Shown: positions 48,254 through 60,170 of the stretch, one piece after another
Layout: every line of letters starts with the position of its first letter
How positions within the stretch are numbered: position 1 is the first letter of the stretch
NCBI GenBank assembly: GCA_903824575.1
Contig: CAIJXJ010000041.1
Coordinates: 1-64,000 of the forward strand
Reading direction: 5' to 3'
Source: an uncultured Methylobacillus sp.
GTDB lineage: Bacteria; Pseudomonadota; Gammaproteobacteria; Burkholderiales; Methylophilaceae
Length of the DNA stretch: 64,000 nt
Made by a program: the position numbers and the translations under genes
Notes under the pieces: model-generated
Told to the model about the DNA's origin: nothing
Databases searched by the model: none
Seen by the model: the letters and a program-made list of their open reading frames with translations, nothing else

Positions 48254-48970
48254 TTATTTTACTTTGTTATGACTTTCAAGGCGCGCTTCAAGGAATTCAC
48301 GGTCAGCTTCCACGTCAAACTTTTCAAAAGCGATGCCGACTCTGAAACAATTGTGTTTTGAGTCATGTACAGTATTCTGCGTTACACCATGAACTCTGAT
48401 TACTTTATGCTCATGGTGAGCTTTCGGGGGGACGAATATGTGTAGTGTTGTGGCCAGTCCAGGTTTCAGGTTGAAATGACTCATAATTGAGACCCCGCTT
48501 TTAGAAATATCTATGGTTCTTTCTGCGCGTGAACTATAACCTTCGATTGCGACTGCCACTCTCCAAGAAGCATGGTATCTTTTATTGACACGGTTTTCCT
48601 TATTTGGTGCGGACTGTTTGGATTCCTTACTAAATATTGTGGCATCGCTTCGGCCTGTTTCTTCTTCAATCCAAACTTCATCAAGAATCAGGTCTTGTGA
48701 AATTGGCTTGAGATTAAATCCAGACGCTTCGGCATTCAGCGGCAATCCAGAAAGTTCAGGGTTATTTGATGCGGTCCCTGAAGCATCTTCAAGGGATTCG
48801 ACTGCAACTGGTTCTTCTTCAAAGAACAAGCCTCGCTCAAGCAACGCATCCATCTGCTTCTGGTTTACAACTGTACCAGCCTTGAGCAATTCCCTGCCCT
48901 GTTTGTCAAAACAGTCAAATGGAATCGGCTCGCCAACCACAATCAATGATCGATTCGATTTTTTAAGCAT
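48254..48970 (-). CDS. PilZ-domain protein with extended N-terminus
   Basis: A 238-residue protein. The first 130 residues are mostly acidic and likely disordered after a short folded start (EPIPFDCFDKQGRELLKAGT, which resembles the entry strand of HD-GYP-associated domains). The PilZ domain has RVNKRYHASWRVAVAI and TIDISKSGVSIM, so the c-di-GMP residues are present, and ends HDSKHNCFRVGIAFEKFDVE like its paralogue at 47.1 kb. Target unknown. Confidence 0.82.
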   Translation of the reverse strand: MLKKSNRSLIVVGEPIPFDCFDKQGRELLKAGTVVNQKQMDALLERGLFFEEEPVAVESLEDASGTASNNPELSGLPLNAEASGFNLKPISQDLILDEVWIEEETGRSDATIFSKESKQSAPNKENRVNKRYHASWRVAVAIEGYSSRAERTIDISKSGVSIMSHFNLKPGLATTLHIFVPPKAHHEHKVIRVHGVTQNTVHDSKHNCFRVGIAFEKFDVEADREFLEARLESHNKVK

Positions 48971-50062: not shown

Positions 50063-53000
50063 TCAAAGTGCATGCCAGCGCAAATCCAGTGTCAACGGAT
50101 AGTCGTGGTTGGTCGTGGTCGTCGGCAGTTCGTCGGCCATGTCGCCAGGCGTGTGGCCATGATCCCAGAAACGACTGACGCGCCGGCCTTCAGCTTCATA
50201 GGCATTGACCGGCAGCGTATCGTAGCTGCGTCCGCCAGGATGCGCCACATGATAGGTACAGCCACCGATGGCGCGACCATTCCAGGTATCAATGATGTCG
50301 AACACCAGAGGGGCCTGTACACCTATGCTCGGATGCAGCGCGGAAGGTGGATTCCATGCCCGGTAGCGAATACCTGCAACCATTTCGCCGAGCGTCGCTG
50401 TCGCCCGCAACGGCACACGGCGGCCGTTACAGCTGAGGGCATAACGCTCGCCGATTGCACCCGTGAGCCTGACCTGCAGGCGCTCGACTGAGGAATCGAC
50501 ATAACGCGCCATGCCTCCACTGGTAATTTCTTCGCCCAGCACATGCCAGGGTTCGATGGCCTGATGCAAATCCAGCTGCAATTCCTCCACCTGTAGCGTG
50601 CCCATGTGCGGAAATCGGAACTCCAGGAACGGTGCAAACCATTCCGGCCTGAAGTCAAAACCCGCGGCTTGCAAATCCCGTGCGACATCATTAATGTCGG
50701 CCTCGATAAAGTGTGGCAGCATGAATCTGTCATGCAATTGCGTACCCCAGCGTACCAGCGGTTGTTTATAGGGCTGCTGCCAGAACCAGGCCACCAGCGT
50801 ACGCAACAGCAACATCTGCACCAGGCTCATCTGCGCGTGCGGCGGCATTTCGAAGGCGCGCAGTTCAAGCAGGCCCAGACGGCCGGTGTCCGAACCGGGG
50901 GCATACAGCTTGTCGATGCAGAATTCGCTGCGATGGGTATTGCCGGTCATGTCAACCAACAGGTTACGCAACAGCCGATCAACCAGCCAAGGCGACGGCA
51001 CCTCGCCGTCAGGCATCTGCTGGAAGGCGATTTCCAGTTCATACAGGCTGTCATTGCGTGCCTCGTCCACCCTGGGTGCCTGACTGGTCGGACCGATGAA
51101 CAGGCCAGAGAACAGGTAGGACAGCGCCGGGTGGTGCTGCCAGTAGGTGACGAGACTGCGCAACAGGTCAGGCCGCCGCAGGATGGGACTCTCGGCTGGC
51201 GTGATGCCCCCCAGGGTGACATGATTGCCGCCACCGGTGCCGGTGTGGCGGCCGTCCAGCATGAATTTCTCGGTGCCCAGTCGGGTCAGCCTGGCCTGTT
51301 CGTACAGCGTAGTCGTATTGTGAACCAGTTCCTGCCAGCTTGCTGCGGGATGAATATTGACCTCGATCACGCCAGGATCGGGGGTAACCGGCAAGCGTGT
51401 CAGACGCAAATCGTGCGGCGGCTGATAACCTTCAATAATCACCGGCATCTTTAAGGCCTTGGCCGTGGCCTCAGTCGAGGCGATAAGATCAAGGTAATGC
51501 GCAAGATCGGTGGTAGGAGGCAGAAACACATGCAGTCGCCCCTCCCGACTCTCCACCGTCAGTGCGGTGTGCGGTGTCCATTTCTGTTCCGGCTCAACAA
51601 CATCGTCGGCCGCGTCCATCTCGGTAGGGTGGCGGGCAGCCTTCTGGAACTGACTGAAGCGCCGGGCGATCTCGGAATCAATGTCGCCTAACGGTTCCAC
51701 GGTGTCATACAAGCTGCGTTCCGGCTCATGATCGTGGTGCGCCAAAGGCACCCAGGGCAGGCTGTTCAATGGCAGGCGCAAGCCCATGGCAGAGTCACCC
51801 GGCACCAGAAACATCTGCTCGCGCCGGAATTCCCACGGGCTGCTGCTCCAGCCATGCGATTGGCGACTCCAATGCAGCGGCAACACATAGCCTACAGGCG
51901 CGCCGAGATCGCCGGTCAAAACATGGGTCAGTCGGCGGCGTTCCAGGTCATCCTTGAGATCGCTTGCCAGCGGGTCAATATTGTCCGGCAGCAAACCTTC
52001 CTGCAACAGATAGTAGAGTGGGTCTTCGAACCCTTCCCGTATATGCGTGCCCTTGAGACCGAGTCGCCCCGACAGTTCCCGGATGAACTTTTCGGCGTGG
52101 CTTGCAGTGAAGCCATAATCGCGGGTTTCGATCGCCAGCAGGTCAGGATTCTTCCAGATCGGATGGCCATCCTTGCGCCAGAAGCAGGCCAACTGCCAAC
52201 GTGGCAACGGCTCGCCCGGATACCACTTGCCCTGGCCAAAATACAGCAAGCCACCAGGCGCAAAACTGTCACGCAGGCGCCGTACCAGTTTTCCCGCCAG
52301 CACCCTCTTCTCAATGCCATCGGCATCGGTATTCCATTCCGGCGCGTCCATGTGGTCGATGGAGACAAAGGTTGGCTCGCCACCCATGGTCAGGCGCACA
52401 TCATTTTCTTTCAACTGCTGGTCGATGTTGTTGCCGAGCGCGTTGATCGCCGCCCATTGTTGCTCCGAATAAGGCTTGGTGACGCGTGGATCTTCATGGA
52501 TACGCGTGACGTGGTTGCCAAAGCTGAACGTAGTATTAGCCTGTCCGGTGAAGCCGCCGGTGACCGGTGCCGCACTGACATAATCGGCGGCACAGGCCAG
52601 CGGAATGTGCCCCTCTCCGGCAAACAGACCTGAGGTCGGATCCAGCCCGATCCAGCCGGCGCCGGGAATGTAAACCTCGGCCCAGGCATGCAGGTCGGTG
52701 AAATCGTGATCGGTACCACTCGGGCCATCGAGCGATTTAACGTCACTCACCAATTGCACCAGATAACCGGAGACGAAGCGCGCAGCCAACCCCATGTGGC
52801 GAAGCACCTGCACCAGCAGCCAGCCGGAATCGCGGCAGGAGCCGAGCTTGCCTTCCAGTGTTTCCTCGCAAGTCTGCACACCGGGGGCCAATCGGATAGA
52901 GTAGTTGACAGCATGGTGTACGCGACCATTGATGTCGACCAGGAAGTTGACAATGGCTTGGCTGTCACGGCTGATTTCACTCAGAAACTTGGTCAGCAAC

Positions 53001-53374
53001 GGGCCATGTTCACGCAATTCCAGATAGGGAGCGAGCTCTTTTTGCAGTTGTTCCGGATAACTGAATGGAAAAAATTCAGCATATTCTTCCAGGAAGAAAT
53101 CGAATGGATTGATTACCGTCATCTCGGCGATCATGTCGACTTCGATCGAAAGTTCGGTCGATTTCTCAGGGAACACCACTCGCGCCAGATAGTTGCCGAA
53201 CGGGTCCTGCTGCCAATTAATGAAATGCTTTTCCGGCGTGATCTTCAAGGAATAGGCCGAAATCGGCGTGCGCGAGTGTGACGCCGGACGCAAACGGAAC
53301 ACGTGCGGGCCGAGTTGTACCGGCTGATCGTAGTGATAGGCGGTCTTGTGGTGAAGCGCTACTTTGATGGTCAT
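50063..53374 (-). CDS. Transglutaminase-DUF2126 fusion protein
   Basis: A 1103-residue two-part protein. Residues 1-290 are a transglutaminase-like protease with Cys180 (LGSCRDSGWLL), His229 (DLHAWAEVYIPGAGW) and Asp245 (GLDPTSG). Residues about 300-1100 are DUF2126, a domain related to glutamine-synthetase/COOH-NH2 ligases and predicted to be a peptide amidoligase; cues are LTMGGEPTFVSIDHMDAPEW, GTGGGNHVTLGG and HRSEFCIDKLYAPGSDTGRLG. The combination of a ligase and a peptidase in one chain suggests making and trimming of an isopeptide product. Its start overlaps the VOC gene stop (ATGA). Confidence 0.9.
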   Translation of the reverse strand: MTIKVALHHKTAYHYDQPVQLGPHVFRLRPASHSRTPISAYSLKITPEKHFINWQQDPFGNYLARVVFPEKSTELSIEVDMIAEMTVINPFDFFLEEYAEFFPFSYPEQLQKELAPYLELREHGPLLTKFLSEISRDSQAIVNFLVDINGRVHHAVNYSIRLAPGVQTCEETLEGKLGSCRDSGWLLVQVLRHMGLAARFVSGYLVQLVSDVKSLDGPSGTDHDFTDLHAWAEVYIPGAGWIGLDPTSGLFAGEGHIPLACAADYVSAAPVTGGFTGQANTTFSFGNHVTRIHEDPRVTKPYSEQQWAAINALGNNIDQQLKENDVRLTMGGEPTFVSIDHMDAPEWNTDADGIEKRVLAGKLVRRLRDSFAPGGLLYFGQGKWYPGEPLPRWQLACFWRKDGHPIWKNPDLLAIETRDYGFTASHAEKFIRELSGRLGLKGTHIREGFEDPLYYLLQEGLLPDNIDPLASDLKDDLERRRLTHVLTGDLGAPVGYVLPLHWSRQSHGWSSSPWEFRREQMFLVPGDSAMGLRLPLNSLPWVPLAHHDHEPERSLYDTVEPLGDIDSEIARRFSQFQKAARHPTEMDAADDVVEPEQKWTPHTALTVESREGRLHVFLPPTTDLAHYLDLIASTEATAKALKMPVIIEGYQPPHDLRLTRLPVTPDPGVIEVNIHPAASWQELVHNTTTLYEQARLTRLGTEKFMLDGRHTGTGGGNHVTLGGITPAESPILRRPDLLRSLVTYWQHHPALSYLFSGLFIGPTSQAPRVDEARNDSLYELEIAFQQMPDGEVPSPWLVDRLLRNLLVDMTGNTHRSEFCIDKLYAPGSDTGRLGLLELRAFEMPPHAQMSLVQMLLLRTLVAWFWQQPYKQPLVRWGTQLHDRFMLPHFIEADINDVARDLQAAGFDFRPEWFAPFLEFRFPHMGTLQVEELQLDLHQAIEPWHVLGEEITSGGMARYVDSSVERLQVRLTGAIGERYALSCNGRRVPLRATATLGEMVAGIRYRAWNPPSALHPSIGVQAPLVFDIIDTWNGRAIGGCTYHVAHPGGRSYDTLPVNAYEAEGRRVSRFWDHGHTPGDMADELPTTTTNHDYPLTLDLRWHAL

Positions 53375-54606
53375 ACTGTGCTTTCGGCCTGCAACAGGCG
53401 CAAATTCTCTTCTACACCAGCCGCCTCGGTCAGTTCTGCTACATTCTGCTTGGTGAAGAAGCCGTCAAAATCACCGAAGCGCTGCACGTATTCTACAATC
53501 AGGGACGAGTGCTCGGAGGCGCTGGAGAATATCTGCTTGAGTCCCTCCTCGCGCGAGCCGATCACATCCAGCAGAAAATCGCGGCCCTGGGCCTTGATGG
53601 CGTCCACCACATAATCGATGTTGGCTTGACCGCCCACCTCGCCATCCGCCACCGACAGCGCGATGTGGTGCAGGCGTGGGCCGTAATTGCGCACGAAGTT
53701 CTCGGTAGGAGAGGGGCATCCATTCAGGTGGTTGACGAAATAAGGATGGTTGGCCGCCGTGAACACCTTGGCCGGACTGGCATGTTCATCAGAATAATGC
53801 AGGCTCTTGGTAACATTGGTGGAAGAATTCTGGCTGACAATATCGTAGGAACCCCAGTAGAAATAGCTGGACAGCGTCAAGTATTCCAGGATCGCCACTT
53901 CCCGGTTTTGGCTGTAAACACGGGTGGCAAGATGATCAATGGGCTGGATTAATTTATCCAGTCCCAAGCTCTTCTGGACCTCCTTGGCCGCTTGATAGCC
54001 ACGATTGACGTCATCACGGATCACGCTATTGCCGAGTGCATAGACCCGCAATTCATCCAGCGGGCGCTCCCAATAGCCAACGATGTTGTGGGTGTAGGGG
54101 GATGGCTTGACGATGGCCATGTTGCCCGGCAATTCCAGCTTGCGAATCTGGTCCTGATTGAAAAATCGGATTTCACGGGCCTTTTGCAACTCGACCACGT
54201 CATGCAGATTGGTGACACGAAATATTTCGCCCATATAGCGCGAATTGGGTTTGTGTGCGCCGATCGGGTAGACCTCGTTGAGGCTCCGGAAGATGCCATG
54301 TTTGCCCGGATCGCGCACCTCGCGCAGCAGGATATCCGGCGAGTTCATGTCGATACGCAACACATGGGTCCAATGGGATTCCGACTCCAGCGTAACGAGA
54401 TAATGATAGGGCGTCATCAAAGCCAGTTCGCTGACGTAGGCCACCGAGCAGTCCGGCTCGACGGTAATCATCATGGTATCAATTTCACGAATCATGTCCG
54501 TCAAGCCGATAGAATCACGTTCCTCCAGCAGTCGCGCCAGATATGTTTCAAACCACGCGGAATTGGCCTTGTCGCCCTGTTTGGGGTGTATCAGTGAATT
54601 GGTCAT
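53371..54606 (-). CDS. VOC-superfamily protein resembling 4-hydroxyphenylpyruvate dioxygenase
   Basis: A 411-residue protein with an N-terminal part without clear motifs (1-215) and two VOC-type modules. Three metal-ligand positions of the HPPD family can be matched: His225 (QPIDHLATRV), His314 (RLHHIALSV) and Glu372 (LIVEYVQRFGDF), followed by DGFFTKQNVAELTEA where HPPD has its gating C-terminal helix. It therefore probably binds Fe(II) and may be an oxygenase. It is embedded between two transglutaminase-like genes with a 14-base gap on one side and an ATGA overlap on the other. Overall identity to HPPD looks low and its substrate is unknown. Confidence 0.75.
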   Translation of the reverse strand: MTNSLIHPKQGDKANSAWFETYLARLLEERDSIGLTDMIREIDTMMITVEPDCSVAYVSELALMTPYHYLVTLESESHWTHVLRIDMNSPDILLREVRDPGKHGIFRSLNEVYPIGAHKPNSRYMGEIFRVTNLHDVVELQKAREIRFFNQDQIRKLELPGNMAIVKPSPYTHNIVGYWERPLDELRVYALGNSVIRDDVNRGYQAAKEVQKSLGLDKLIQPIDHLATRVYSQNREVAILEYLTLSSYFYWGSYDIVSQNSSTNVTKSLHYSDEHASPAKVFTAANHPYFVNHLNGCPSPTENFVRNYGPRLHHIALSVADGEVGGQANIDYVVDAIKAQGRDFLLDVIGSREEGLKQIFSSASEHSSLIVEYVQRFGDFDGFFTKQNVAELTEAAGVEENLRLLQAESTV

Positions 54607-54620
54607 TTTGTCTCGAAGAA

Positions 54621-55418
54621 CTATTGTTGGGACTGTTGCATGCCGAGTGCCTGCACCCGGAATGTGGTGGATGCATCGGCATCAGTCCGCATCAGGCTAA
54701 TCGGCCGGGCATCCCGCTCATCCAGGCCGGTCGCCAGGCGAACATGCACGCCATTGGTTAGTTGGCCATGGGTTACGTCGAAACTCTGCCATGAGCCGTC
54801 TACCCAGGCATCGGCCCAGGCATGATTGCCAATCATTTCATCGCCTGCATTGAACAGATAGCCGCTGACGTAGCGTGCGGGTACCCCGAGGTAGCGGCAA
54901 CAGGCAATGAAGCAGTGGACCTGATCCTGATTGCTGCCGGTTCCGATAAAAAATGCATCTGTCGCTGTCGCGCGCAACTCGGGTAATCCCCGGCACAACA
55001 CGACACGATTGCGGACGGCGTGCATCAAGGCCTGCAATTCAATCTTTTCAAGGCCATGATCGGGCTGGCCAAAAAGTTGGGCAAACTCCATCAGGCGCGC
55101 ATCCATGGCGGTGAGCTTGGTCGCGCGCAGGTAGACTTGCAGCGGCAACACCTCTTGCGGCGGCGGGACGTCCAGCCCGGTCTCCACTTCGCCCATAGCA
55201 ACAATGTCGATCATGCTGTGCCTGCCATCGATCACCAGCGTGTGAGCGAGGTTACCGTAGGCATCGCATTGCGACTGCATGTTGCCATTGACGCGGATCT
55301 CCCAATGCTTGACGCGTTGACCAAAACCATCTTGCGGCGTCAGGTGCAATTGCTGAATGGTGTATTCCACCGGGGCATCAAAAGCAAAACGTGTACGATG
55401 TTCGATATTCAGTTGCAT
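54621..55418 (-). CDS. Transglutaminase-like protein with Cys-to-Asn change at the nucleophile
   Basis: A 265-residue transglutaminase-fold protein with the N-terminal domain LNIEHRTRFAFDAPVEYTIQ. His199 (NHAWADAWV) and Asp214 (SFDVTHG) are present, but the stretch that in relatives reads GVCQDHAH is GSNQDQVH here; the codon at that place is AAT, so Asn163 replaces the catalytic Cys. It is likely inactive as a protease and may act as a binding or scaffold subunit for its active paralogues. It lies between the alpha-E gene (23-base gap) and the VOC gene. Confidence 0.85.
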   Translation of the reverse strand: MQLNIEHRTRFAFDAPVEYTIQQLHLTPQDGFGQRVKHWEIRVNGNMQSQCDAYGNLAHTLVIDGRHSMIDIVAMGEVETGLDVPPPQEVLPLQVYLRATKLTAMDARLMEFAQLFGQPDHGLEKIELQALMHAVRNRVVLCRGLPELRATATDAFFIGTGSNQDQVHCFIACCRYLGVPARYVSGYLFNAGDEMIGNHAWADAWVDGSWQSFDVTHGQLTNGVHVRLATGLDERDARPISLMRTDADASTTFRVQALGMQQSQQ

Positions 55419-55441: not shown

Positions 55442-56389
55442 CTAATGCGCTGGCGCATTGAGGAAGGAGATTTGAATTTCCCGCCCCAACCGGTTGTTAA
55501 GCGCGATGAAGTCCTGCAGGAATTCATGCAGCCCTTCCTTGAAGATGTCATCCATGCGGCCAAAATGCAGGCGTGCGTGCGTTTCTCCGGCGATACGCAA
55601 ACATTCGCGGCCGCGTTGTGTGCAGATCTGCTCCAGTATGGGTGTCAATTCATCAAAGCAGGCGTGCAGTGAACGCGGCATGTCGTCACGCAACACCAGC
55701 AATTCCGCGACCTTGGATGGCAAAATGGTGTCGCGAAAAACCTTCTGGTAAGCCTCAAACGACGACACCGAGCGTAGCAGGGAACTCCATTCGTAATAGT
55801 CCACCGGACCGTTCAAGTCGCCAGCTGCTGCCATCAAAAGGTGATACTTGGCATCGAGCAGGCGAGCCGTGTTGTCGGCACGCTCGATGAAGGTGCCTAG
55901 CCGCAGGAACTTGTACCCATCATCGCGCAGCATGGTGCCGTAAGTGACGCCGCGAAACAGGTGCGAACGCGATTTCACCCAATCACAGAATTCACCGATA
56001 TCGGCCTCGTTGAGTCCGGGCTGAAGCCGTTGCGTCAGTTCCAACCATAAGGCATTGACCGTTTCCCACATCTCCGATGACATCGCCACGCGGACCGATC
56101 GTGCGTTTTCACGAGCGGAACCTAAGCAACTGACGATGCTCGATGGATTACGTGTGTCGAGCGCCATGTAGTGCATCACGTTGGCCGCGTTGTAATCGCC
56201 ATAATCGCGTTCGAAGGCGGCGACGTCATCGGCAATGAGTACCGGCGGCTGCCAAAGGGTGGCTTCACTTTCACCGGCGTGCGACACCAGCGACATGCGG
56301 TAAGTCACGTCCAGCACCCGCGCCATATTTTCGGCACGCTCGATGTAGCGCGCCATCCAGTACAAATGATCGGCGGTACGGCTCAGCAT
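55442..56389 (-). CDS. Alpha-E domain-containing protein (DUF403)
   Basis: A 315-residue all-helical protein. The start at 56389 gives MLSRTADHLYWMARYIERAE, the family's standard beginning, followed by RVLDVTYRMSL and conserved Arg/Glu-rich helices such as LRLGTFIERADNTARLLD. Alpha-E proteins are found next to circularly permuted ATP-grasp and transglutaminase genes and are predicted partners in peptide-bond formation; no activity is proven. Its start overlaps the ATP-grasp gene by seven bases. Confidence 0.92.
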   Translation of the reverse strand: MLSRTADHLYWMARYIERAENMARVLDVTYRMSLVSHAGESEATLWQPPVLIADDVAAFERDYGDYNAANVMHYMALDTRNPSSIVSCLGSARENARSVRVAMSSEMWETVNALWLELTQRLQPGLNEADIGEFCDWVKSRSHLFRGVTYGTMLRDDGYKFLRLGTFIERADNTARLLDAKYHLLMAAAGDLNGPVDYYEWSSLLRSVSSFEAYQKVFRDTILPSKVAELLVLRDDMPRSLHACFDELTPILEQICTQRGRECLRIAGETHARLHFGRMDDIFKEGLHEFLQDFIALNNRLGREIQISFLNAPAH

Positions 56390-57816
56390 GATGCCACCTC
56401 GTTCAACACCCAAGTGTCCTTGGTGCCGCCCCCTTGCGAGGAATTAACCACCAGCGACCCTTCCGTCATGGCGACCCGACAAAGTGCGCCAGGCACCAGC
56501 GACACGGTCTTTCCGGACAGCACGAACGGTCGCAGATCAACATGGCGCGGTGCCACACCCTGCTCCACCAGCGTCGGGCAAGTGGACAGCGCCAGCGTCG
56601 GCTGGGCGATATAGTTATTAGGGTTCGCCAGGATGCGTTGCCTGAAGTCCTCGACCTGCTGTTTCGACGAGGTCGGCCCCACCAGCATGCCGTAGCCTCC
56701 CGAGCCCTGCACTTCTTTCACCACCAGTTCGGCCAGGTGATCGAGCACGTAACGCCGGTCGTCAGGAATGGAAAGCTTCCAAGTCGGCACGTTGGACAGA
56801 ATGGGCTCTTCTCCCAGATAGAATTTCACCATCTCGGGCACATAGGTATAGGTTGCCTTATCGTCCGCCACGCCTGTGCCAATGGCGTTCGCCAGCGTCA
56901 CGCCGCCGTTGCGGTAAACCGAAACCAATCCCGGCACGCCCAGCATGGAATCGGCGCGAAATGCCAGTGGATCAATGAAGTCATCGTCGATGCGTCGGTA
57001 GATCACATCCACGCGCTTCGGTCCCTCGGTAGTGCGCATGTACACGGCGTCGTCGCGCACAAACAGATCCTGCCCTTCCACCAGTTCGATGCCCATTTGC
57101 TGCGCCAGGAAGGCATGTTCGAAATACGCGCTGTTATAGGCTCCCGGCGTCATCAGCACTACAGTTGGATCCTGCACGCCGGGTTGCGCCACGGCGCGCA
57201 AGTTGTTTAGCAGGACCTGCGGGTAATGCTCGACCGGGGCCACTGAATAACGACGAAACAACTCCGGGAACAGCCGCATCATCATCTTGCGGTCTTCCAA
57301 CATATAGGAAACACCGGACGGCGTGCGCAGGTTGTCTTCAAGCACGTAGAACTGATTTTCGCCGGTGCGCACGATATCGATGCCGGCGATATGGGCATAA
57401 ATGCCACCCGGCACATCCACACCCTGCATTTCCGGGCGGTACATCTCATTGGTCAGGATGCTGGCGGGGACAATACCAGCACGGATTATTTCCTGCCCAT
57501 GGTAGAGGTCATTCAGAAACGCGTTGAGGGCACGTACGCGCTGGATGGCCCCAGCCGACAGATGTTGCCATTCTTGAGCCGCCAGGATGCGTGGCACCAC
57601 ATCGAACGGGATCAGGCGTTCAGCGCCTGCATCTTCGCCATAGACATTGAAGGTGATGCCGACGCGGCGGAACAGCAGTTCTGCTTCGCGGGTCTTCTGC
57701 GCGAGATGGGCATGGCTGGTGGAAGCCAGCCAGTCGGTATAGGGCCCGTAAACTTTCCGGACCTTGTCCCCACTGGCTCGCATTTCATCGTAAGATTTAC
57801 TGATATTGATCGTCAT
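56383..57816 (-). CDS. Circularly permuted ATP-grasp protein
   Basis: A 477-residue enzyme of the circularly permuted type 2 ATP-grasp family (DUF404/DUF407), predicted to make peptide or isopeptide bonds using ATP. Cues are VLEDNLRTPSGVSYMLEDR, NAIGTGVADDKATY, LVVKEVQGSGGYGMLVGP and the C-terminal LVVNSSQGGGTKDTWVL. It is the first gene of the six-gene minus-strand operon; a region of about 150 bases upstream separates it from the cytochrome b gene and should hold the operon's promoter. Confidence 0.93.
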   Translation of the reverse strand: MTINISKSYDEMRASGDKVRKVYGPYTDWLASTSHAHLAQKTREAELLFRRVGITFNVYGEDAGAERLIPFDVVPRILAAQEWQHLSAGAIQRVRALNAFLNDLYHGQEIIRAGIVPASILTNEMYRPEMQGVDVPGGIYAHIAGIDIVRTGENQFYVLEDNLRTPSGVSYMLEDRKMMMRLFPELFRRYSVAPVEHYPQVLLNNLRAVAQPGVQDPTVVLMTPGAYNSAYFEHAFLAQQMGIELVEGQDLFVRDDAVYMRTTEGPKRVDVIYRRIDDDFIDPLAFRADSMLGVPGLVSVYRNGGVTLANAIGTGVADDKATYTYVPEMVKFYLGEEPILSNVPTWKLSIPDDRRYVLDHLAELVVKEVQGSGGYGMLVGPTSSKQQVEDFRQRILANPNNYIAQPTLALSTCPTLVEQGVAPRHVDLRPFVLSGKTVSLVPGALCRVAMTEGSLVVNSSQGGGTKDTWVLNEVASC

Positions 57817-57969
57817 GGTAATGAATTAACAGCAAGGCCCGTGCCAAGTTAATATAGTCAATAAATTCATTTGGTTAGCTATATTTCCATTAAAAATTTT
57901 GGCGGCATGCACCATACTTGGGCGAATAATCCGGACTGCGCTCTACAAAGAGGCCAGGCTTCATCAGAA

Positions 57970-58704
57970 TTATTGCGAATAATTCAACTCCCCATTCCTG
58001 ATCAATGTATCAATGCTGTTTTCTGCCTGCAGCCAATCCTCCCAGGCACGCCCGGACTCAAAGCCATGTCGTTCGGCGATGTAATAGGCGGCTTCTTCGA
58101 TATATCGGATCCGAATGAACTCAGGCACCGTCATGTCGGGTATTTCATCATGTCTGTTGCCCATCGGGTTCAGCCTGCGCACCTTTTCACCCGTAATCAT
58201 GGCCCATGGCAGATTTTCCCGATGCACCACGCTTCCCGCAACAACACCCAGCAGATGAAGGGCGATGACCATGGTCCATAAATTTGCCACCCAGCCATGC
58301 AAATTCTTGATCTGATCCACTCCCAGCAGAACGTGCGGAAAGGACCATTCATTGAAAGACAGATAGCCCGTGATTACCGTCAGCGTGCCAAGTGCCAGCA
58401 TGGCATAGACGGCCAGGGCCCCCGCAGGATTGTGGCTGATATGCCGCTTAGCCTTGCCCTTGGCCAGACCCAGCAGATAATTGACGCCCGCAATCGGATT
58501 GGGCGGGAATCTGCGAAACGAAGAAAAATCACGCATGCCGAATCCCAGCAGCCAGCGGATTGCAATCACGACCCCGGCGATGGTTCCAGCCTCGATGTGA
58601 ATGTCACGCATCAGTTCCGAATTCCGGGTATAAAATGCAGCAACAAATGCCACGACCAGCACCCAATGCATCAACCTGATGGGAATTGACCAAACCTTGA
58701 TCAT
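57970..58704 (-). CDS. Cytochrome b561-like protein fused to a DUF2934-type C-terminus
   Basis: A 244-residue membrane protein from the ATG at 58704. The first 175 residues hold four helices with heme-ligand candidates in PIRLMHWVL, MRDIHIEAGT, IKNLHGWVANL and IALHLLGVV, typical of the diheme b/b6-domain cytochromes. The last 60 residues (EFIRIRYIEEAAYYIAERHG followed by SGRAWEDWLQAE) look like DUF2934, usually a free-standing soluble domain. No c-type partner is adjacent. A 36-residue Cys-rich ORF ends two bases before its start. Confidence 0.85.
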   Translation of the reverse strand: MIKVWSIPIRLMHWVLVVAFVAAFYTRNSELMRDIHIEAGTIAGVVIAIRWLLGFGMRDFSSFRRFPPNPIAGVNYLLGLAKGKAKRHISHNPAGALAVYAMLALGTLTVITGYLSFNEWSFPHVLLGVDQIKNLHGWVANLWTMVIALHLLGVVAGSVVHRENLPWAMITGEKVRRLNPMGNRHDEIPDMTVPEFIRIRYIEEAAYYIAERHGFESGRAWEDWLQAENSIDTLIRNGELNYSQ

Positions 58705-58705
58705 G

Positions 58706-58816
58706 TCAAGTCCGGCAACCAAGGTAAAGCTTGCAATAACGGTTACCGCCCGAATGGCAAATATAGGTGGCGTAGCAGCGCTCTACCCCACTTCGCTCCA
58801 GGTCTTCAATCACCAT
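58706..58816 (-). CDS. 36-residue Cys-rich small ORF upstream of cytochrome b
   Basis: Reads MVIEDLERSGVERCYATYIC then HSGGNRYCKLYLGCRT, with four Cys and a strong AAGGAG site before the ATG at 58816. The TGA is one base from the cytochrome ATG (TGACATG), so translation of the two would be coupled. I recognise no family; it could be a leader peptide or a small metal- or redox-sensing protein. Confidence 0.6.
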   Translation of the reverse strand: MVIEDLERSGVERCYATYICHSGGNRYCKLYLGCRT

Positions 58817-58916
58817 GCCGCACTCCTTCGTTTTCAAAGCACCTCACAATGACTCAGCAAGTTGCATGCCAATATATTGAGTGATTGTGACGACACCATG
58901 AATTCTGGAAATATGG

Positions 58917-60170
58917 CTAATTGCCTTCTGCGGCCTCACAATCCAGATCGAAGCAAAGAACACGAATTCCTTCCCGGCTATCATAGGCTAGCGACAAGGT
59001 GACGCATAAGCGGCCAGTACGGATTGAAAGATAAGGCCGCGTACACTGCACTTCTCCAGGCCTTGACATGGCGCGCAGCCAATAGGGGCGGCGAATCCAT
59101 ATGGCACCCTGCCCGCTTTCCAGCGGTTTGAAATGACGGTCTCCCAGATAGACGGCGCTTTGATTTACACAAGTTTCACCAAGCTGTTTTCCGTGGTGGT
59201 CGAGCAAATAGCAGCATTCCCCACCCTTCGGTACCAGCAACGGCTTAAAGCAATCAAGATTCTCAGAGAAAATGCCCGCGTTCCCCTCCAGGCAAGCGAC
59301 AGCGCGTTCCAATGCTGCAACATAAGACTGATATTTGTCGCCGCCCTGCCTCAATCCCAGCACTTCGCGGTATTGCGTGAACAGCTCCGACACAACTGTC
59401 GCGGCACTGTCAGCAACAATAGGACCTGAGACTGGCCGGCCGAAGTAATACCCTTGTACCAATTCGGCGCTGGTTTCCATCGCAATCATGGCCTCAGCTT
59501 CATTCTCAATGCCTTCGACCAGTACCAGGCTGCCGGCCTCATGCAAAGTGTTCACGATGTTGGGCAACATGCGTCTGGCAACAACATCGTTGGCAGCGTT
59601 ACAAATAATGGATCGGTCCAATTTGACGATATGCGGCTTCAACCGCCAGATGCGCTGAAAATTGGAACTGCCGGCACCAAAATCATCAATGGCGATGAGA
59701 CATCCCAAGTCGCGATAGAAAGCCACACAATTGTCCAGGCTCGGTTCATCGACCAGGGTATTTTCCAGTATCTCCACGACGATCTGATCGGGCGACAACC
59801 CTGCGGCCGCCAGCAACTCCCGAAAGAAAGTTCCGTATTTTTTGCCGTGTACAATGACATTTGGATTAATGTTGAGAAATAACCAGCCTGTAGGGTGGTT
59901 CGCCTGCTTAAAGTTGCTGACGTGCAAGGCACGGCAAAGCCGATCCAGATAAACAATGTCGAATTCGGTTTGTGCGAGACTGAAAATTGCCGGCGGATAT
60001 ACCGGTTTACCAGCTTGGGAGTAGCCCCGTACTAACGCTTCGAAGCCTACAGCTCGATGATGAGCCAGGCTGATGATCGGCTGAAAAGCAGTTTCAAGTG
60101 TTACCCCTGAAAAACCTGCAGATAGCCCGCTAGCCGCAGTGTCAATATTCTTGATGATGTGCTTTAACAT
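58917..60170 (-). CDS. EAL-domain c-di-GMP phosphodiesterase with C-terminal sensor-like domain
   Basis: A 417-residue cytoplasmic protein. The EAL domain (about 20-260) keeps the catalytic set: EALVRG, the Asn in NINPNV, Glu in VVEILENTL, DDFGAGSSN, Lys in VKLDRS, EGIENEAE and QGYYFGRP, so it is probably active. Residues about 270-417 form a second domain with Cys-rich text (GGECCYLLDHHG) and RPYLSIRTGRLCVTLSLAYD, similar to the regulatory domains found after EAL in YcgG-like proteins. With the HD-GYP and PilZ proteins it adds to the window's c-di-GMP theme. Confidence 0.9.
   Translation of the reverse strand: MLKHIIKNIDTAASGLSAGFSGVTLETAFQPIISLAHHRAVGFEALVRGYSQAGKPVYPPAIFSLAQTEFDIVYLDRLCRALHVSNFKQANHPTGWLFLNINPNVIVHGKKYGTFFRELLAAAGLSPDQIVVEILENTLVDEPSLDNCVAFYRDLGCLIAIDDFGAGSSNFQRIWRLKPHIVKLDRSIICNAANDVVARRMLPNIVNTLHEAGSLVLVEGIENEAEAMIAMETSAELVQGYYFGRPVSGPIVADSAATVVSELFTQYREVLGLRQGGDKYQSYVAALERAVACLEGNAGIFSENLDCFKPLLVPKGGECCYLLDHHGKQLGETCVNQSAVYLGDRHFKPLESGQGAIWIRRPYWLRAMSRPGEVQCTRPYLSIRTGRLCVTLSLAYDSREGIRVLCFDLDCEAAEGN

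Follow-up and report, generated by a model that had tools for sequence, protein, structure and literature searches.

A putative Fe(II) keto-acid oxygenase of the HPPD fold class in a probably nitrogen-controlled ATP-grasp/alpha-E/transglutaminase operon of an uncultured Methylobacillus

Introduction

For operons that combine genes for ATP-grasp, alpha-E and transglutaminase-like (TGL) proteins, often together with Anbu, induction under nitrogen limitation has been reported from several bacteria (PMC5491218, PMC8050072, PMC7801951). In B. cenocepacia H111, I35_5080-5083 (encoding DUF404/407, DUF403, TGL and large TGL proteins) are given as common sigma-54/NtrC targets, the tabulated values in the ntrC mutant being -6.0 to -9.4 (PMC5491218). 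Two studies of P. putida show higher levels of PP_2688 (ATP-grasp) and PP_2685 (proteasome-like) when ammonium is absent and count PP_2685-2688 among the likely targets of NtrB/NtrC (PMC8050072, PMC7801951). The Anbu operon has been described as such, and the passages on its role called the hypotheses unconfirmed in 2017 (PMC6376114). Here, we analyze an operon of this kind on a stretch of 64,000 nucleotides (nt), hereafter the window, from an uncultured Methylobacillus sp. (GCA_903824575.1, contig CAIJXJ010000041.1, positions 1 to 64,000), in which the gene for a protein of the VOC fold is embedded. Computation established the fold class of this protein, the conservation of its ligand residues, its association with the surrounding genes and the promoter sequences, and on these grounds we propose, with a probability of roughly 0.6, that it is a nitrogen-starvation Fe(II) keto-acid oxygenase, whose substrate would be a small keto acid in free form, perhaps a dicarboxylic one, and not a peptide.

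Within the VOC fold, the relevant enzymes are 4-hydroxyphenylpyruvate dioxygenase (HPPD), hydroxymandelate synthase (HMS) and the hydroxyglutarate synthase HglS of the DUF1338 type. Characterised enzymes of the HPPD fold use free 2-oxo acids as substrates. In HglS, according to the structural sections of its description, the metal ligands are His70, His226 and Glu294, and Arg74, four residues after the first of them, contacts the distal carboxylate of 2-oxoadipate; the enzyme is given there as active with 2-oxoadipate alone and not with 2-oxoglutarate (PMC7286885). Searches of open-licence PMC papers returned no description of the oxygenase considered here.

Fold and predicted iron site

The original prediction had reported an HPPD-like protein without giving a strand; its open reading frame is real and is read from the minus strand:

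53371-54606, minus strand: VOC gene (411 aa, ATG start), predicted HPPD/HMS-type two-module VOC oxygenase with putative Fe(II) ligands His225, His314 and Glu372 and an invariant Arg229

Neither Pfam nor NCBIfam assigns the protein significantly to a family. It matched no NCBIfam family at E<=1 and hence not TIGR01263 (HPPD), and its sole line in Pfam was PF13669 (Glyoxalase_4) at E=0.19, with no match to PF07063 (DUF1338). Sequence searches of the PDB with the protein and its profile gave no true relative, the one match, to a ribosomal protein, being at chance level, and a plasmid search returned no match.

An AlphaFold2 model built from 31 sequences reached a mean pLDDT of 70.7 and a pTM of 0.76; a second model with more distant relatives (26 sequences) brought no gain (mean pLDDT 66.5). 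When the model was compared with the PDB by Foldseek, all 50 matches listed were HPPD and HMS. In VIA-align, human HPPD scored Z 17.8 over 294 aligned residues (root-mean-square deviation 4.3) and HMS Z 17.4. As modelled, the protein has a fold of the HPPD/HMS class, in agreement with the HPPD likeness originally claimed.

Profile comparison with eight HPPDs by hhalign gave a 44-column C-terminal match (E=6.7e-4, probability 27%) and, in local mode with the confidence filter off, a near full-length alignment of 310 columns (E=8e-4 for one comparison, probability 24%); the global mode produced a nonsense alignment, and the local-mode alignment alone was used. It pairs His225, His314 and Glu372 with His168, His246 and Glu330 of HPPD L137, and the proposed correspondence with the Fe(II) ligands of HPPD thus stands at the level of alignment. 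All 81 aligned sequences (the window protein plus 80 relatives) have His225 and His314, and 80 of them have Glu372, the exception, L092, stopping short of that position; the triad is also invariant when five distant relatives of 36-39% identity are added. These three residues are putative Fe(II) ligands, and fold and ligands together, by analogy with the characterised enzymes, point to an Fe(II)-, O2- and 2-oxo-acid-dependent activity.

Around this site, the protein keeps some features of HPPD and departs from others. The C-terminal signature is retained (QIF..., E-x2-QR-x-G-...-GF-...-N), but Gln231 and Gln245 of L137, which we take to be substrate-binding positions in HPPD, correspond in the local alignment to Pro300 and His313. 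The motif at the first ligand is H-L-T-H-N in the eight HPPDs and H-x-A-x-R in HglS, E. coli YdcJ and two other DUF1338-type structures. In the present family, Arg229, four residues past His225, is invariant, distant relatives included, and its spacing from His225 equals that between His70 and Arg74 of HglS.

The operon and its conservation

The VOC gene is the fourth of a five-gene operon on the minus strand, in the order ATP-grasp, alpha-E, TGL, VOC, TGL-DUF2126, the neighbours being identified by Pfam:

56383-57816, minus strand: circularly permuted ATP-grasp protein (477 aa), first gene of the operon; Pfam PF14403 (E=5e-168) and PF04174
55442-56389, minus strand: alpha-E protein; Pfam PF04168 (E=4.6e-103), family match 55463-56389
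54621-55418, minus strand: TGL protein (265 aa); Pfam PF08379 and PF01841, TGL core E=1e-14
50063-53374, minus strand: TGL-DUF2126 protein (1103 aa), putative amidoligase; Pfam PF09899 (E=0), PF08379 and PF01841

The genes that define an amidoligase-type operon, those for ATP-grasp, alpha-E, TGL and DUF2126 proteins, occur together here. The two junctions that were said to lock the VOC gene into the operon are both seen in the sequence: a gap of 14 bases separates it from the TGL gene, and its stop overlaps the DUF2126 start as ATGA. The alpha-E open reading frame as listed starts with TTG at 56413; because the Pfam match begins at its residue 9, the ATG at 56389 is the likelier start. The operon is immediately preceded, in the same orientation, by a gene for a cytochrome b561-type protein with a C-terminal DUF2934 (57970-58722, minus), and the region is flanked, as identified by Pfam, by genes for an EAL-domain protein (58917-60170, minus) and a PilZ-domain protein (48254-48970, minus).

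For counts across loci, GTDB contigs were scanned for close relatives of the VOC protein, of which 172 were found and 80 kept. In 55 of these 80 loci, and in 40 of the 54 that extend for at least 4 kb on both sides, the VOC gene has ATP-grasp, alpha-E or DUF2126 genes no more than 5 kb away; it is unlinked in the remaining 25 of the 80. Anbu is near the VOC gene in 22 of the 80 loci. Among the nearest relatives of the window, 30 of 31 VOC genomes carry alpha-E within 5 kb, and in the sole exception, G041, the VOC match is a 65-residue fragment and alpha-E was not found. Alpha-E is present elsewhere in the genome in 25 of the 25 genomes with an unlinked VOC gene, compared with a background of 232/397, and all 7 VOC genomes of that 397-genome sample have it. 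The association of the VOC gene with the ATP-grasp/alpha-E/TGL/DUF2126 genes is genuine, and the survey of gene neighbourhoods bears out the linkage originally predicted; since the genomes are related, no exact probability is claimed for it.

Identity to the ATP-grasp protein of the window is at least 75% in 17 VOC loci, 40-75% in 31 and below 40% in 4, and the VOC proteins across such loci are 71-86% identical, so one type of oxygenase accompanies different ligase subfamilies. Near the unlinked copies, genes for TetR, dienelactone hydrolase, FMN oxidoreductase, QRPTase, aldolase, sulfate permease and sodium symporter proteins were seen, and the scanned neighbours had no common theme beyond malic enzyme in six loci. 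The arrangement can be more elaborate, as in L121 (G086 contig 33, 1-18000), where 15 kb of a single contig hold the VOC gene, a fused ATP-grasp-alpha-E gene and two separate pairs of ATP-grasp and alpha-E genes. Around a distant VOC relative from another class (L114), the genes encode, in order, an agmatinase-like protein, a class-II amidotransferase-like protein, two glutamate-synthase-like proteins, malic enzyme and the VOC protein, followed by two thiamine pyrophosphate decarboxylase-like proteins and then by peptidase- (PepQ-like) and amidase-like proteins; judged from these sequences, the cluster looks like a nitrogen-compound pathway.

Promoter and probable nitrogen control

Two candidate control elements precede the first gene of the operon:

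57832-57846, minus strand: sigma-54 promoter-like sequence TGGCAC-N5-TTGC, located 15 nt before the ATP-grasp ATG and without a second exact match in the window
57908-57924, minus strand: NtrC-like palindrome, 8/10 positions, 78 nt upstream of the sigma-54 element

When two or fewer mismatches are tolerated, the window holds 132 matches to the sigma-54 sequence, compared with a mean of 97 in 100 shuffles, none of which reached as high. Transcription would be expected to start only a few bases before the ATP-grasp ATG, and a later start codon is therefore possible. A further sigma-54-like sequence, with one mismatch (58857-58871, minus), lies about 135 nt before the cytochrome b561-type gene.

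The sigma-54 element recurs among relatives. A site scoring at least 19/20 is found upstream of 25 of 53 ATP-grasp genes near VOC relatives versus 11 of 496 other genes, the scored segments comprising 130 nt upstream plus 60 nt inside the gene for the former and 130 plus 20 nt for the latter. Unlinked VOC genes also have sites of their own: 11 of 25 carry a sigma-54-like site scoring at least 17, versus 27 of the 496 other genes, and 10 of these 11 sites lie 36-47 nt before the VOC start and one at 68. For NtrC, the 29 ATP-grasp upstream regions with a good sigma-54 site include 19 with an NtrC-like score of at least 8/10 and 10 with at least 9/10. The score of 8/10, which is that of the window, is also attained by 212 of 2000 random 250-nt stretches, 24 of which reach 9/10. 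Of the 29 relatives listed, 8 (L021, L023 and L026-L031; six are Methylomonas) have their NtrC-like site at exactly this distance of 78 nt, and the others have theirs elsewhere. The operon of the window would accordingly be transcribed from its sigma-54 promoter, probably under NtrC.

Distribution of the oxygenase family

The VOC gene occurs in 7 of 397 proteobacterial genomes, and 31 of the 100 nearest relatives of the window have a VOC match. The 80 fetched relatives include beta-, gamma- and zetaproteobacteria. By taxon names alone, about 58 of them are of methylotroph type (Methylomonas, Methylotenera, Methylophilaceae, Methylococcaceae, Methylocaldum and others) or of sulfur/iron-oxidiser type (Thiobacillus, Acidithiobacillus, Gallionella, Halothiobacillus, Mariprofundus, Thiogranum and others), the others bearing broad names only. 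Searches around a distant VOC relative of another class, presumed Alphaproteobacteria, found the gene in 6 of 195 genomes, all of one genus, and in one more among 337. The window protein is 85-86% identical to those of Methylomonas (Gammaproteobacteria; L021-L031) versus about 69-72% to most VOC carriers of its own family, which suggests horizontal transfer of this operon type; four other VOC-bearing members of its family reach 81-85%.

Proposed function and alternatives

If the protein is a nitrogen-starvation keto-acid oxygenase, it would be a mononuclear Fe(II) enzyme of the two-substrate 2-oxo-acid type, to which HPPD, HMS and hydroxyglutarate synthase belong. A free 2-oxo acid would be bound through its keto-carboxylate at the His225/His314/Glu372 iron and decarboxylated with O2, the second oxygen atom being added to the resulting acid. 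The enzyme would be produced together with the ATP-grasp/alpha-E/TGL/DUF2126 system from the sigma-54 promoter, probably under NtrC, at nitrogen shortage. There, it may dispose of the keto acid that remains once nitrogen has been stripped from the substrate of that system or, alternatively, supply the system with a hydroxy acid.

Several observations weigh against this proposal. Both the iron binding and the activity are themselves predicted, residues 342-409 of the model, which include Glu372, have pLDDT below 50, and similarity to HPPD at the level of profiles is weak (24-27% probability in hhalign), the PDB sequence searches having yielded no true relative. An Arg four residues past the first His is frequent among VOC proteins generally, so that Arg229 argues only weakly for a dicarboxylate. 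The counted relatives are phylogenetically related, and the counts are accordingly not independent; moreover, 225 of 232 sampled proteobacteria with alpha-E have no VOC gene, and the oxygenase is therefore not essential to the alpha-E system. Nine of the 25 unlinked copies (L069, L072, L082, L085, L088, L089, L090, L094 and L097) have no convincing sigma-54 site, with best scores of 15 or less; the low scorers include four of five unlinked Acidithiobacillus copies, the fifth scoring 16, and both zetaproteobacterial copies. Among unlinked VOC genes with a sigma-54-like site, NtrC-like scores of 8/10 occur in 6 of 16 and 9/10 in none, and because these sites are only suggestive, NtrC control of the unlinked copies is not claimed.

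As for the substrate, Arg229, the malic enzyme genes found near VOC in 6 of 80 loci, and the distant cluster L114 suggest a dicarboxylic keto acid; that it is a 2-oxo-dicarboxylate, by analogy of Arg229 with HglS Arg74, is speculative. In its fullest form, the proposal would be a new family of nitrogen-starvation-induced oxygenases that turn a 2-oxo-dicarboxylate into the 2-hydroxy acid shorter by one carbon, in the simplest case 2-oxoglutarate into malate, and thereby couple the disposal of carbon skeletons to the ATP-grasp/alpha-E/Anbu nitrogen system or give the ligases a hydroxy-acid building block. We offer this extension tentatively and consider it rather unlikely as a whole.

A special case of the keto-acid reading is a shunt for 2-oxoglutarate (or oxaloacetate), in which 2-oxoglutarate and O2 would yield malate and CO2 on the model of the HglS conversion of 2-oxoadipate to 2-hydroxyglutarate, with malate feeding malic enzyme. 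Apart from the invariant Arg229 at the HglS spacing, such a shunt would fit the malic enzyme genes within 5 kb of VOC in L035, L037, L039, L040, L043 and L092, the malic enzyme gene directly before VOC amid glutamate-synthase-like genes in L114, and the finding that 2-oxoglutarate dehydrogenase E1 had no match in any of the 60 genomes from the family of the window. VOC-negative members of the family, however, are likewise without this dehydrogenase, the 5 kb around VOC showed no malic enzyme in 74 of 80 loci, a number of them short, and HglS itself, in the account cited above (PMC7286885), showed no activity with 2-oxoglutarate. In addition, E1 scores above the cut-off in 34 of 54 VOC genomes (those of 50 of the 80 fetched loci and 4 distant ones). 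The shunt is therefore unlikely. A general bypass of missing 2-oxoglutarate dehydrogenase was also considered and, because of these 34 genomes, rejected as a general role.

The original prediction took the presence of an oxygenase to imply oxidation of the peptide product or of an aromatic residue within it. On such a reading, the protein would hydroxylate or cleave a residue of a peptide made by the ATP-grasp/DUF2126 ligases. Tailoring of this kind would agree with the tight spacing of the VOC and ligase genes and with the co-occurrence of VOC and alpha-E, but it does not sit well with the free 2-oxo acids on which characterised members of the fold act or with the two HPPD Gln positions that are not Gln here. 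The same VOC type, furthermore, occurs with different ligase subfamilies, and 25 of 80 copies are unlinked, of which 11 have their own sigma-54-like site, a pattern that a shared small metabolite would fit better than one peptide. This part of the prediction is not upheld, and we hold peptide tailoring to be quite improbable. A true HPPD or HMS using 4-hydroxyphenylpyruvate is very improbable: these enzymes are the top fold matches, but the protein matches no TIGR01263 model and has no Gln at the equivalents of Gln231 and Gln245 of L137, the genome G439, which has a distant VOC relative, encodes a separate HPPD (L137) over the family cut-off, and many named hosts are methylotrophs or sulfur/iron oxidisers, in which tyrosine breakdown seems unlikely.

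To the original prediction, the present analysis adds a promoter of the nitrogen type, sigma-54-like sites at unlinked VOC copies and the shift toward a small keto acid. A dedicated oxygenase with recognisable chemistry is an assayable step and gives initial chemical access to an amide-bond-making gene set that is poorly understood; identification of its keto acid would tell what the ATP-grasp/alpha-E/transglutaminase system makes or breaks.

Comparison with known systems

With HPPD and HMS (TIGR01263), the predicted oxygenase shares the two-module VOC fold, the His/His/Glu ligands and the C-terminal QIF...E..QR.G motif, but it differs in having no family-model match, in not keeping the two HPPD Gln, and in its sigma-54 promoter and amidoligase neighbours. 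With HglS and the DUF1338 proteins (PF07063), it has in common the VOC fold, the His/His/Glu set and an Arg at the first His+4 and, by analogy, may share 2-oxo-acid oxygenase chemistry; unlike them, it has no PF07063 match, and the fold matches listed are HPPD and HMS. The operon, in turn, resembles B. cenocepacia I35_5080-5083 and P. putida PP_2685-2688 (the latter with Anbu) in its core gene set and, judging from the sequence, in a promoter of the sigma-54/NtrC type. In contrast to those two gene sets, for which the passages that describe them list no VOC oxygenase, the operon of the window has a VOC gene placed between the TGL and DUF2126 genes.

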